A program made the translations under genes and the position numbers. Below the pieces are notes generated by a model, which was given only the letters and a program-made list of their open reading frames with translations, did not search any database and was not told the origin of the DNA. DNA of 64,000 bases from Candidatus Methanosphaera massiliense (GTDB taxonomy: Archaea; Methanobacteriota; Methanobacteria; Methanobacteriales; Methanobacteriaceae). Shown here piece by piece: positions 5,879 to 48,436 of this stretch (its first letter is position 1; every line of letters begins with the position of its first letter). The stretch is taken from assembly GCF_028890305.1 (NCBI RefSeq), contig NZ_JARBXM010000001.1:684501-748500 (forward strand), in the 5' to 3' direction.

Positions 5879-6982
5879 CTAATTCTTCCATTCAAATGGT
5901 ATATCTTTCATTTTAGAAGGTGTTAATATTGTTCCATCCATTTTAGCTATTATTGCATGGAATTCTATGTTATATTTTGAGTTACATAATTCTATAATCT
6001 TATCTGCAATTAATTCAAATACTTCTGTTGTAATGCCTTTCTTGTCTAGTATTTTTATAACATCTTCTGTGGTGATACAATCATATACGGCTTGTAATGT
6101 TTCCTTATCTGCCCCTATTAGTGCAGTGTATGCTGTCATTATCTCTCGTCTTGCATCTGCAACACTCTGTTTTGTGTTAAATATTCCTGCTGCAATTTTT
6201 ATTAGTTTACCTGCATGGCCAAAAAGTGTGATAGATTTTATTTTTCCAGTTTTATCAGCTTCATCTAACATGTATCCTACAAAGTTACTCATCTCTATTA
6301 TTGCATCCTCATCTATTACTAATCTCTCATTTGCTATTCTTGTTCCAATATTTCCTGGTACAAATAGTAAATCTTCATATTTATTAGCTATTGCAACATC
6401 TATCTGTATTTTTAATGAGTCTGTGTATGCTTTTGAAGACATTGGACGGGCTATACCTGTTGTTCCTAATATAGATATACCATCTATTATTCCAAGTCGG
6501 CTATTCATTGTTTTAGGTGCTATTTCTTTTCCTTCAGGAATAATAATTTTCACTATAGCTCCCTTATTTTCTGGAAGATATTTTTTAACATTTGCTTTTA
6601 TCATTTTTCTTGGAACAGGATTTATAGCATATTCTCCAACAGGTATTTGGAGTCCAGATTTAGTTACTTTTCCCACTCCTTCTCCGGCAGTTATTTCCAC
6701 GTTACCAGCATCATCAGTTAAGGTCACCTCTGATTTAATAAGGATTCCACGTGTAACATCAGGATCATTATATGTAGGTTTTCTAACGGTTGATATAGCT
6801 TTATTTTTACTTAATAATTTGTTATCTTCTATTTCAACTGTTAGTTCATCATTTGGAGCAGTTATTTCAATTACTTCAGGAGCTTTATCTGTTATGGTGA
6901 GTATTGCTGCTACACTAGCTGCTGTTGCAACACTTCCAGTGGTAATTCCTGATTTTTCATCAGAGTTTTTATGAGCTTCTAT
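5879..6982 (-). CDS. cbiD: Cobalt-precorrin-5B C1-methyltransferase CbiD, apparent ATA start
   Basis: CbiD methylates C1 in anaerobic cobalamin synthesis; the corrinoid is needed by methanogen methyltransferases. The conserved N-terminal motif GITTGSVATAA is encoded at about 6920-6950, well upstream of the first conventional in-frame start (GTG 6727), so the gene cannot begin there. The frame stays open up to a TAA at 7007-7009, and no ATG, GTG or TTG occurs in between. An ATA at 6980-6982 lies 7 nt after a GGGGG tract and would give 367 residues beginning MEAHKNSDEKSGITTG, a normal length. Alternative: ATG 6994-6996 is joined to this frame if one G is missing from the run of five. Enzyme identity is strong; the start is inferred. 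Confidence 0.82.
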   Translation of the reverse strand: MEAHKNSDEKSGITTGSVATAASVAAILTITDKAPEVIEITAPNDELTVEIEDNKLLSKNKAISTVRKPTYNDPDVTRGILIKSEVTLTDDAGNVEITAGEGVGKVTKSGLQIPVGEYAINPVPRKMIKANVKKYLPENKGAIVKIIIPEGKEIAPKTMNSRLGIIDGISILGTTGIARPMSSKAYTDSLKIQIDVAIANKYEDLLFVPGNIGTRIANERLVIDEDAIIEMSNFVGYMLDEADKTGKIKSITLFGHAGKLIKIAAGIFNTKQSVADARREIMTAYTALIGADKETLQAVYDCITTEDVIKILDKKGITTEVFELIADKIIELCNSKYNIEFHAIIAKMDGTILTPSKMKDIPFEWKN

Positions 6983-44255: not shown

Positions 44256-44705
44256 TTATTCATGATATTTAGCTGTAATATCCTTCAGAATAATTTTATA
44301 AACAATAGCTGGACACTCTGCTATTTTGTTGATTTCGTTATATTCTAATTTACAATGCTTTAACATTAATTTATACGCATGAGTTTTATCTTCAATATCT
44401 TCAACTAATTCGGCATGACCATGAGCCATGACAGAGTTATATTTACAGGTAATGTCATAAAATCTGATGATATTATCAAATTCAACGAAAACATTTGAAT
44501 TTCTGTTAATCAAATCTATTTTATGACCTTCACTAGCTGAATGAATATATATAATAATTTCATTATTCACTACTTCATATCCAAAAGCTAATGGAACAAC
44601 ATATGCATAATCATCATCTTTAAGGCCTAATCTAACAACCTCTGATGAATCAATAAAATTTACTATCTCGTTAAAATCTGTAACTTCTAGATCTTTTCTT
44701 CTTAT
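44256..44705 (-). CDS. PNPOx-like flavin-binding protein (NimA-type), downstream copy, apparent ATA start
   Basis: A 149-residue split-barrel protein of the pyridoxamine-phosphate-oxidase-like superfamily, similar to nitroimidazole-resistance proteins. The N-terminus RRKDLEVTDFNEIV, then VVRLGLKDDDYAYVVPLAFGY and IYIHSASEGHKIDLI, follow the family pattern. The first conventional start is GTG 44570, which would delete the conserved first 45 residues. In-frame upstream there is only ATT-ATA. ATA 44703-44705 is 7 nt after GGAGG and directly precedes the RRKD, which in this family follows the initiator Met. Identical to the second copy. Confidence 0.75.
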   Translation of the reverse strand: MRRKDLEVTDFNEIVNFIDSSEVVRLGLKDDDYAYVVPLAFGYEVVNNEIIIYIHSASEGHKIDLINRNSNVFVEFDNIIRFYDITCKYNSVMAHGHAELVEDIEDKTHAYKLMLKHCKLEYNEINKIAECPAIVYKIILKDITAKYHE

Positions 44706-44833: not shown

Positions 44834-45283
44834 TTATTCATGATATTTAGCTGTAATATCCTTCAGAATAATTTTATAAACAATAGCTGGACACTCTGCT
44901 ATTTTGTTGATTTCGTTATATTCTAATTTACAATGCTTTAACATTAATTTATACGCATGAGTTTTATCTTCAATATCTTCAACTAATTCGGCATGACCAT
45001 GAGCCATGACAGAGTTATATTTACAGGTAATGTCATAAAATCTGATGATATTATCAAATTCAACGAAAACATTTGAATTTCTGTTAATCAAATCTATTTT
45101 ATGACCTTCACTAGCTGAATGAATATATATAATAATTTCATTATTCACTACTTCATATCCAAAAGCTAATGGAACAACATATGCATAATCATCATCTTTA
45201 AGGCCTAATCTAACAACCTCTGATGAATCAATAAAATTTACTATCTCGTTAAAATCTGTAACTTCTAGATCTTTTCTTCTTAT
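44834..45283 (-). CDS. PNPOx-like flavin-binding protein (NimA-type), upstream copy, apparent ATA start
   Basis: Exact duplicate of the gene at 44256-44705, including ribosome-binding site and the ATA at 45281-45283. The first conventional start would be GTG 45148. It is preceded by the 159-residue orphan gene's stop region. A duplicated gene with the same non-standard start doubles dosage. Substrate unknown; the fold binds FMN or F420-type cofactors in relatives. Confidence 0.75.
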   Translation of the reverse strand: MRRKDLEVTDFNEIVNFIDSSEVVRLGLKDDDYAYVVPLAFGYEVVNNEIIIYIHSASEGHKIDLINRNSNVFVEFDNIIRFYDITCKYNSVMAHGHAELVEDIEDKTHAYKLMLKHCKLEYNEINKIAECPAIVYKIILKDITAKYHE

Positions 45284-46016: not shown

Positions 46017-48077
46017 TTAGTATTCTGCATTTACTATTCCTGCATCAATAAGTTTTTCATTAGAATTCAATGAATCATCAGATAATCCTTCAGGATTATT
46101 TAAATCCACATTATCACTAGTTGGATGAATAACTACTGATGAATTAGTACCTTCCACAGTTATACTACCTGGTATATCTGTAATATCATTATATTCAAGC
46201 ATTATTGTACCATTTGAATCAAATAAATGTTGTGCTGTGGATGTTCCTAAAATTGCTACAAGTTGGTCATATGTTAAGTTACCATTTAAATATAATAGAT
46301 AAATGTATAAAACATAACTTGATGTTGTATATGGATGATTTTCTTTTCTTATTTCTTCCCTATATTTTGTTACAACATGTGTATGTGCTACTTGCATTGT
46401 TTTATTTGCATAATAGGTTATAGTTCTATTATTTGCTACCTGCACTGTTTTATTTTGGTAAGATAATATTGTTCTGTTATGTGCTACTTGTCGTGTTTCA
46501 TTTTTGTATGTAGTTATGGTTCTATTGTGCGGTACTTCTACGGTTATTGTTTTAAATTTAGTTACTGTTCTGTTATTAGCAACTTGTACAATTTTTGTCC
46601 TATAAAGAGTTATTGTCTGATTATGTGCTACCTGTATTGTTTTGGTTATATATTTAGTATTATTTTTATTTATTATAGTTATATTATGTTGTCTTGGTTT
46701 TAGATTTGATTTTATAAATTGTGTTGAATTAGTTGGTTTTGTGATTATTTTTGTATTAATACCCTTATTTCTGTTTATATTGTTAGGCATGTTATTGATA
46801 GTTCTTATATTTTTGTGTTCTATCGGCTGTTTTGTTGTATTTGTGGTATTATAATGTTTAATTGTGTTATTATATGGTATCTGTATAGTCTTATTTGTAT
46901 AATACGTCTTTGTTATATTGTATGGTTCTTGTATTGTCTTATTTGTATAATATATTTCTGTTGTATTGTATGGTTCTTGTATTGTCTTATTTGTATAATA
47001 TGTCTCTGTTGTATTATATGGTACTTGTACTGTCTTATTTGTATAATATGTCTCTGTTGTATTATAGGGTTCTTGTATTGTCTTATTTGTATAATATGTC
47101 TCTGTTGTATTATATGGTACTTGTACTGTTTCATTTGTATAGTATGTCTCTGTTGTATTATATGGTATGGATACAGTTATTTCTGTAATGTTATCATGGG
47201 TTATTGTTTTGTTGAGTACTTTCCATGCCCATGATAATGAGTTTTTTTCTACTACTTTGTAGTTGATAGTTATGTAGTTTTGAAATACATTAGAATCTGG
47301 TTTATAGATTAGGAATTGATATGCTATTGTTGTACCATTAGGTTGAACGTAGATACCATAGTTTGCTATATCCTTATTTAGTGTTTTATACATGTTTATA
47401 GTTTCATTTATATAATAACCTACAACCTTGTCACTTATTTCTCTGTCAAACCATTCTTGATCTACTTCATCATTTAATGTACCGTTATTGTATTGTAAAA
47501 TATCGTATGCTGTAAATCCTTCAATAACTTCTCTGTTTGATTGATGGACATTTACTGAATTTATGAAATCAGGGTCATTACAATGATTTACCATGAATAA
47601 TTTAATATACGGTAGAACATTGACATTTGGAGTATATAATTCATTTATACTAGTTTCATTTGTTAACTTATATCTAGTATATGATTCATTTACTCGTGCA
47701 GCATCTTTTGATTCATCAATACAATAAGCCCAATAACCATCACTAAATTGCGTGTATGCGCCCTTAATATTGGCTGTTACAGGTACTGGTGTCTCTATGT
47801 CCCATGGTTCACTTGTTGATTGGTTGTGATTAGTATAATTTTTTTCTGAAGTGTTAGAAGGCACTACACTTTTATTATGGTATATATTGTAATTATTATT
47901 CTCTGTTTTTACTTGTTTATATGTATTGCTGAGGTTATTGGGATGATGATTTGTATGAGTAATTTCTGTATTATTTGAGTTTGTTGTGTTACTGTCTGTA
48001 GCATATATTGCTCCACAGCATAAGAGGATTATTAAACTGAACAGAACTATTTGCTGTATTAATTTTATTTTTTTTAT
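46017..48077 (-). CDS. Secreted repeat-rich adhesin-like protein, apparent ATA start
   Basis: A 686-residue extracellular protein. From ATA 48075-48077 it reads KKIKLIQQIVLFSLIILL then CCGAIYATD, a textbook signal peptide. ATG, GTG and TTG are absent from this N-terminus; the first conventional start, GTG 47864, would delete it. GGAG lies 8 nt upstream of the ATA. The mature protein has an N-terminal domain of about 250 residues. It continues with two sets of 16-residue repeats rich in N-x-T/S sequons, and ends with a domain of about 100 residues carrying VVIHPTSDNV. It is likely heavily N-glycosylated at the cell surface. Function unknown. Confidence 0.72.
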   Translation of the reverse strand: MKKIKLIQQIVLFSLIILLCCGAIYATDSNTTNSNNTEITHTNHHPNNLSNTYKQVKTENNNYNIYHNKSVVPSNTSEKNYTNHNQSTSEPWDIETPVPVTANIKGAYTQFSDGYWAYCIDESKDAARVNESYTRYKLTNETSINELYTPNVNVLPYIKLFMVNHCNDPDFINSVNVHQSNREVIEGFTAYDILQYNNGTLNDEVDQEWFDREISDKVVGYYINETINMYKTLNKDIANYGIYVQPNGTTIAYQFLIYKPDSNVFQNYITINYKVVEKNSLSWAWKVLNKTITHDNITEITVSIPYNTTETYYTNETVQVPYNTTETYYTNKTIQEPYNTTETYYTNKTVQVPYNTTETYYTNKTIQEPYNTTEIYYTNKTIQEPYNITKTYYTNKTIQIPYNNTIKHYNTTNTTKQPIEHKNIRTINNMPNNINRNKGINTKIITKPTNSTQFIKSNLKPRQHNITIINKNNTKYITKTIQVAHNQTITLYRTKIVQVANNRTVTKFKTITVEVPHNRTITTYKNETRQVAHNRTILSYQNKTVQVANNRTITYYANKTMQVAHTHVVTKYREEIRKENHPYTTSSYVLYIYLLYLNGNLTYDQLVAILGTSTAQHLFDSNGTIMLEYNDITDIPGSITVEGTNSSVVIHPTSDNVDLNNPEGLSDDSLNSNEKLIDAGIVNAEY
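46365..47170 (-). repeat. 16-residue (48-bp) coding repeats in the adhesin-like gene
   Basis: One block (about 46860-47170) repeats PYNTTETYYTNKTIQE and variants six to seven times. A second block (about 46365-46640) repeats the related VAHNRTITxYxNKTVQ pattern. The period is 48 bp in both. The repeats are in-frame and coding, with no unique spacers. Confidence 0.85.
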
Positions 48078-48436
48078 ATTTTTATCTCCTTTTTTTTATT
48101 GTGAGTGTGCATGATTCCTATTTAAAGAATATATTCTAGAATATATCCTCTTTAAATATTTAATTCATTTATACAGGTCTAAATATCTATAATTTAAATA
48201 TTTGAATAATTTAAAGCGTAATTAGATTATTGCACATGAATTCCTTTATTATTAAATATATATAATCTTTATGTCTAATGTAGGAGTTATTAATTTTATT
48301 ATACTCTACTTAAAACGGTTTATTTCCTATTTATTGACCTAATTTTATCTTTCTGTAGTCTTTTCTTAATGAAAAGTATTATTTTAGTTTACTGTTATAT
48401 ATAATAATAGACTATTTGTTTTTTATGTTGATAATT
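48078..48436. other. Intergenic region, divergent, with palindrome
   Basis: 359 bp between the adhesin-like gene and the rightward hypothetical gene. It holds the GGAG ribosome site of the adhesin gene (about 48086-48089), a 36-bp near-palindrome (48121-48156) and AT-rich promoter-like DNA. No gene found. Confidence 0.45.
48121..48156. promoter_or_regulatory. 36-bp near-perfect palindrome
   Basis: The central ATATATTCTAGAATATAT is an 18-bp perfect palindrome, flanked by TTTAAAGA on the left and CCTCTTTAAA on the right, which also pair apart from two extra C. It lies about 45 bp upstream of the adhesin start and is a candidate operator for a dimeric regulator. Confidence 0.5.

Follow-up and report, generated by a model that had tools for sequence, protein, structure and literature searches.

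The adhesin-like gene considered here raises a simple question: at which codon does its translation begin? The gene lies in a stretch of 64,000 nucleotides (the window) from Candidatus Methanosphaera massiliense, whose genome of 1,785,773 bases in 2 contigs we refer to as G000. On the minus strand, its frame is open from the stop codon at 46017 up to 48095, but the first in-frame conventional start (ATG, GTG or TTG; NTG below) is a GTG at 47862..47864, within the mature protein and without a Shine-Dalgarno (SD) sequence ahead of it by eye. Exactly 71 codons 5' of this GTG (which is thus codon 72) is an ATA (48075..48077), and the best reading is that this ATA is the start codon. The encoded protein would be a secreted protein of 686 amino acids (46017..48077, minus strand), as judged from the open frame and its stop.

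The sequence-only reading of this locus had drawn attention to a GGAG, 8 nt, an ATA, a signal-peptide-like start, and a first NTG 71 codons further on, and all of these were confirmed in the sequence. The SD sequence is AGGAG (48086..48090, minus strand); the spacer ATAAAAAT places 8 nt between GGAG and ATA, and IKKIKLIQQIVLFSLIILLCCGAIYATDS follows the ATA. This spacing is usual, because 8 nt is the most common distance from GGAG to the first ATG (12 of 60 GGAG occurrences among 183 ORFs sampled from G000). The translation from the ATA opens with a lysine-rich and hydrophobic N-terminus that, by eye, resembles a signal peptide (IKKIKLIQQIVLFSLIILLCCGAIYA, 48000..48077, minus strand). It includes one CTG codon, again without an SD by eye.

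The name "adhesin" is a label by likeness; a scan of the protein against Pfam and NCBIfam gave no family over the cut-off. The coding region contains 48-nt tandem repeats at 46382-46537 (3.2 copies) and 46868-47168 (6.3 copies). Folding of the leader RNA is unremarkable (z = −1.07), and upstream of the leader there is a 40-bp near-palindrome (48119..48158, self-match of 90% over 40 bp), which is possibly a regulator site or a hairpin. Finally, a 12-codon, out-of-frame ORF that begins with ATG (48074..48112, minus strand) overlaps the ATA and contains a run of eight A's (A8, 48090-48097).

A second strain of the same species, G002, keeps both the AGGAG and the ATA, so the ATA is not a sequencing error. 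The leaders of the two strains differ at one of 200 aligned bases, an A to G change within the spacer that creates an out-of-frame ATG AAA ATA TAA in G002. The protein is 100% identical in the two strains, although an ungapped comparison of 5058-bp stretches gave mismatches at 140 positions. We did not find a close orthologue outside the species, so the case for the adhesin itself rests on its anatomy and on analogy with other genes. G014 has a more distant homologue (identity of 36-46%, depending on the segment), in which GGAGG-TAATA-ATG precedes a hydrophobic N-terminus.

ATA and ATT starts in other genes

Two other genes in the window had also been proposed to start with ATA, and both cases are real. 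The cbiD gene (5879..6982, minus strand) has an ATA at 6980-6982 with GGGGGA upstream. When we compared this gene across 20 Methanosphaera genomes, the start column was ATA in 11 genomes and ATG in 8, and the remaining genome had ATG one codon earlier. In nine of the 11 genomes with ATA, the interval from the upstream stop to the conserved ITTGS motif contains no NTG; the other two (G016 and G018) have an in-frame NTG upstream. Outside the genus, all ten loci that we read have an ATG shortly upstream of ITTGS. A tree of cbiD (24 rows) requires 4 changes between ATA and ATG, of which at least 2 are forced by starred branches.

The PNPOx-like gene is present as a tandem pair, with ORFs from ATA at 45281-45283 (44834..45283, minus strand) and from ATA at 44703-44705 (44256..44705, minus strand). 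In both copies, GGAGG is followed by 7 nt, the ATA, and then RRKDLEV. The copies are identical in 465 of 477 aligned columns (the remaining 12 are gaps) and encode identical proteins of 149 amino acids, so that this is apparently a recent duplication with the ATA start in both members. PF12900 spans residues 12-144 of the protein, and an NTG first occurs 45 codons 3' of the ATA. (The HMM scan of the first copy used a translation that begins 4 codons 3' of the proposed start; the protein of the second copy is identical.)

Beyond the window, we compared 400 kb of G000 to samples from eight other Methanosphaera genomes. Of the 232 ORFs in G000 that have reciprocal best hits, at least 5 (about 2%) show starts other than NTG. 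By family, this is 5 of the 165 families with at least four members: cbiD, cca, nucS, a glycosyltransferase gene (GT2), and a secreted protein with Ig-like domains.

The curated HMMs of cca and nucS begin at the proposed ATA or ATT codon: positions 2-407 of TIGR03671 match residues 2-407 of the ATT-started cca protein, and positions 2-244 of NF003270 match residues 2-242 of the nucS protein. In cca, the codon ahead of the motif Y-N/D/K-x-IL is ATA or ATT in all nine samples and is preceded by an SD-like GGTGAT, GGAG, or GAGG. Seven of the nine have an in-frame NTG upstream, which in five of these seven is the GTG within GGTGAT; G001 and G016 have none. In nucS, the codon is ATA in G000 and ATT in the five other genomes, with five of the six in one alignment column and that of G001 one codon earlier. 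The ATT of nucS in G016 is directly 3' of the upstream stop, and an upstream in-frame NTG is present in G007 and G010.

The gene for the secreted protein has ATT in 8/8 genomes, with SD scores of 11-16 and a normalised spacing of 7-8 (an upstream in-frame NTG is present in G001 and G012). GT2 has ATT in 6/6 genomes, with a position that shifts by one codon between genomes and runs of ATT in three of them (an upstream in-frame NTG is present in G007).

The upstream NTGs noted above in members of cca, cbiD, GT2, nucS, and the secreted family might conceivably be used instead. The absence of a usable NTG is clearest for the adhesin, both PNPOx-like copies, cbiD (nine genomes), nucS (G000, G001, G012, and G016), cca (G001 and G016), GT2 (G000, G016, and G019), and the secreted protein (G000 and G010). 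A strong and well-spaced SD precedes the adhesin, PNPOx-like, nucS, secreted, and cca starts, while in most members of cbiD and GT2 the SD is weaker and G-rich. The non-AUG codon is conserved in every cca, secreted, GT2, and nucS member that was compared, is mixed in cbiD, and for the adhesin is seen in two strains only. As cca, nucS, GT2, and the secreted protein use ATT or ATA, the feature comprises AUU as well as AUA. In sum, judging from these alignments, several Methanosphaera genes appear to start at AUA or AUU, at matching places across sister species.

Two further genes have unusual codons at or near the expected start. A DHPS-like gene of G000 (TIGR00284; L073:12773-14356, minus strand) has CTG at position 1 of the profile, with AGGAGG upstream, and positions 1-497 of the profile match residues 1-527 of the CTG-started protein. 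Also, G010_154 (UppP-like by eye; ILDIISAIILGAVQG) has GAGGTGAT-TATT-ATT where 80% of its family have NTG.

Frequency of AT[ACT] starts and a control genus

The sequence-only reading had suggested that AUA initiation might be a regular but unrecognised feature of this organism, and that the number of ATA starts in the genome should be compared to chance. This count has been run in part, for 400 kb of the 1.786 Mb of G000 (22%). A scan that does not use alignments covered 1,559 ORFs from eight Methanosphaera samples. In it, we considered in-frame SD sites of at least 5 nt that had no NTG near and for which the next in-frame NTG was 12 or more codons further on. The codon at the best spacing was AT[ACT] for 11 of 28 sites, versus 15.2% of nearby in-frame codons (34/224; P = 0.0017, binomial test), though not every site is independent: nucS is counted three times and PNPOx twice among the 11, which also include one putative site in G016 and two sites in G001 that do not resemble gene starts. 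The cross-species evidence carries more weight than this statistic.

As a control, we analysed four genomes from another genus of the same family (200 kb each) in the same way. In the alignment-free scan, AT[ACT] was found at 1 of 9 control sites, which is at background. Raw candidates (genes with homology that extends at least 12 residues before the first NTG) were not rarer in the control genus (19 of 637 genes) than in Methanosphaera (22 of 1,311 genes). On inspection by eye, we retained 17 from Methanosphaera and 3 from the control, where fewer were accepted because the genomes are closely related. The five Methanosphaera candidates that we dropped (G000_266, G001_105, G010_175, G012_128, and G019_111) and the 16 from the control had upstream DNA that is common to close genomes, antisense-looking ORFs, or a nearby NTG. 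This left 5 clear families of 165 (with at least four members) in Methanosphaera versus 1 of 145 (with at least three members) in the control, a difference that is too small to argue for genus-specificity, and any excess of AUU or AUA starts in Methanosphaera over the control genus is tentative. In the control genus, a large adhesin-like protein (family G037_2, L155-L194) has AGAGGTGGAAAA-ATT in 4/4 genomes. From these alignments, AUU initiation is probably not confined to Methanosphaera.

Two other counts weigh against a preference for ATA or ATT. Within alignment columns that are mostly NTG, the lone deviants are not mainly ATA or ATT: ATA accounts for 1 of the 10 deviants without an NTG within 15 codons, and 4 of these 10 belong to cca or GT2, where the proposed start is in a different column. 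A start picker that is blind to the codon (upstream weight of 1.0) chose AT[ACT] in 6 of 17 Methanosphaera members that lack NTG and in 4 of 12 control members, and its choices are noisy. It recovered the starts of the secreted protein and cca but not that of GT2, and for nucS and cbiD it chose a position other than the proposed codon.

So, the suggestion of a regular feature holds in that, across the genus, ATA or ATT is found at the starts of cbiD, cca, nucS, GT2, and the secreted protein. It does not hold for AUA in particular, because AUU is at least as common. The feature may also not be peculiar to this organism, given the ATT in one adhesin family of another genus.

Alternative explanations and a proposed mechanism

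Could the adhesin be translated without initiation at the ATA? Translation might instead begin at the ATG at 48112 and enter the main frame through −1 slippage or a variable A8 run (phase variation), with the ATA as a mere codon of the leader. The heptamer A_AAA_AAG is indeed in frame with this ATG, and one added A would join its frame to the main frame. However, no suitably spaced SD precedes the ATG, the A8 run is equally long in both strains, slippage would leave the GGAG idle despite its position 8 nt before the ATA, and the ATA and ATT starts of other genes have no visible run of A's. We therefore consider this explanation to be very improbable. We give equally little credence to the idea that the gene is a pseudogene or that it starts at the GTG at 47864 and lacks a signal peptide. 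Although this GTG is the first conventional start of the ORF, it has no evident SD (see above), the signal peptide is intact, and the frame of 686 codons has kept an identical protein in G002 while the DNA has diverged. It is still harder to believe that AUA has been reassigned to methionine: nothing beyond the ATA starts themselves points to this, ATA is the most common isoleucine codon (5.3% of codons in the G000 sample), and AUU also serves as a start. We rejected reassignment on codon usage.

A broader question is whether the ATA and ATT starts have any regulatory role or are drift that is tolerated in an AT-rich genome. The low G+C content (about 30%) and the fact that cbiD has ATA in some genomes of the genus and ATG in others favour drift, and we view it as a serious possibility. 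But a single change would restore ATG, and cca (9/9), the secreted protein (8/8), GT2 (6/6), and nucS (6/6) have no NTG at the start as we read it. These four families lead us to disfavour drift somewhat, even though cbiD does switch.

Returning to initiation at the ATA, we think it very likely, from the layout of the leader and from the ATA and ATT starts of other genes, that the adhesin is translated from the AUA at 48077 by a 30S subunit that is placed by the AGGAG and by ordinary initiator Met-tRNA. The AGGAG would set the 30S subunit at the usual distance from the AUA, and the initiator Met-tRNA, with its CAU anticodon, would pair with the first two bases while a mismatch at the third position is tolerated. 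Thus, the ribosome would start with methionine at AUA, and the same tolerance would account for AUU in other genes of this genome. A weak AUA or AUU codon would presumably keep output low, and the initiation factor aIF1 is the obvious, if conjectural, candidate for setting the efficiency.

We looked for signs of unusual machinery. The initiator tRNA gene has the anticodon CAT and an intact GGG/CCC stem and is normal by eye, so we rejected an unusual initiator tRNA as the cause. In an alignment of 23 aIF1 sequences (10 from Methanosphaera and 13 others), the differences particular to the genus are all small (T to K, for example), and we rejected an obvious defect in aIF1, as no change was striking. 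In all ten Methanosphaera aIF1 genes that we read, ATG precedes KICE (NICE in G003), so aIF1 does not itself have the non-AUG start that would be expected of a fidelity-factor gene with IF3-type autoregulation.

Overall, the best reading is SD-guided initiation with Met-tRNAi at AUA or AUU, perhaps with expression limited by it, as for infC, pcnB, and ccpN in bacteria. The product of pcnB is a nucleotidyltransferase that is akin to CCA-adding enzymes. In E. coli, a weak AUU start limits or autoregulates the expression of infC and pcnB, according to PMC1780047 and the studies cited there (Butler 1987; Binns and Masters 2002); pcnB appears as "pncB" in that paper. These are single genes with a weak AUU start, but they are bacterial and controlled by IF3, whereas in Methanosphaera, an archaeon, the starts are AUA as well as AUU and occur in a number of unrelated genes. 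In S. aureus, as described in PMC13009471, infC, ccpN, and citZ start with AUA and cvfC1 starts with AUU, three of them behind extended SDs, and reporters for ccpN, cvfC1, and citZ gave about 10% of the output with AUG (for ccpN, as much as 30% in rich medium). The resemblance is in AUA and AUU starts behind SDs; however, those starts come from initiation profiling in a bacterium, while ours come from comparative genomics in an archaeon and involve enzyme and envelope genes.

In Sulfolobus, complexes that form on non-AUG mRNA are reportedly destabilised by aIF1 (PMC6237735), whereas aIF1 of Methanosphaera looks ordinary, and any tie to these genes is conjectural. More generally, the bacterial starts named in a review include AUU, AUC, and AUA (PMC4611024), and annotated AUA, AUU, and AUC starts were accepted across 260 species (PMC5397173). 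As 25 of these species are archaea, annotated archaeal examples may exist. Among the titles and opening lines of abstracts that searches of open-licence PMC papers listed, none reports AUA or AUU starts in Methanosphaera.

A more ambitious idea, and one that we hold only tentatively because we doubt it more than we believe it, is that the starts of cca, nucS, cbiD, the glycosyltransferase, secreted adhesins, and the CUG-started DHPS-like gene are under selection and are jointly throttled via aIF1, in Methanosphaera and perhaps in other Methanobacteriaceae. If so, common throttling by aIF1 would parallel, in archaea, the gating of AUU genes by IF3.

A search for starts that considers only NTG would clip N-termini, including signal peptides and the first residues of domains, and may report false GTG starts that are really parts of SD sequences, as in cca. 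Conserved AUU and AUA starts also offer a direct route to how archaeal initiation (aIF1 and local scanning) discriminates at the third position of the codon, and allow one to ask whether weak codons are a fixed brake on expression outside of bacteria. In Methanosphaera, these starts may be a built-in means of low output.
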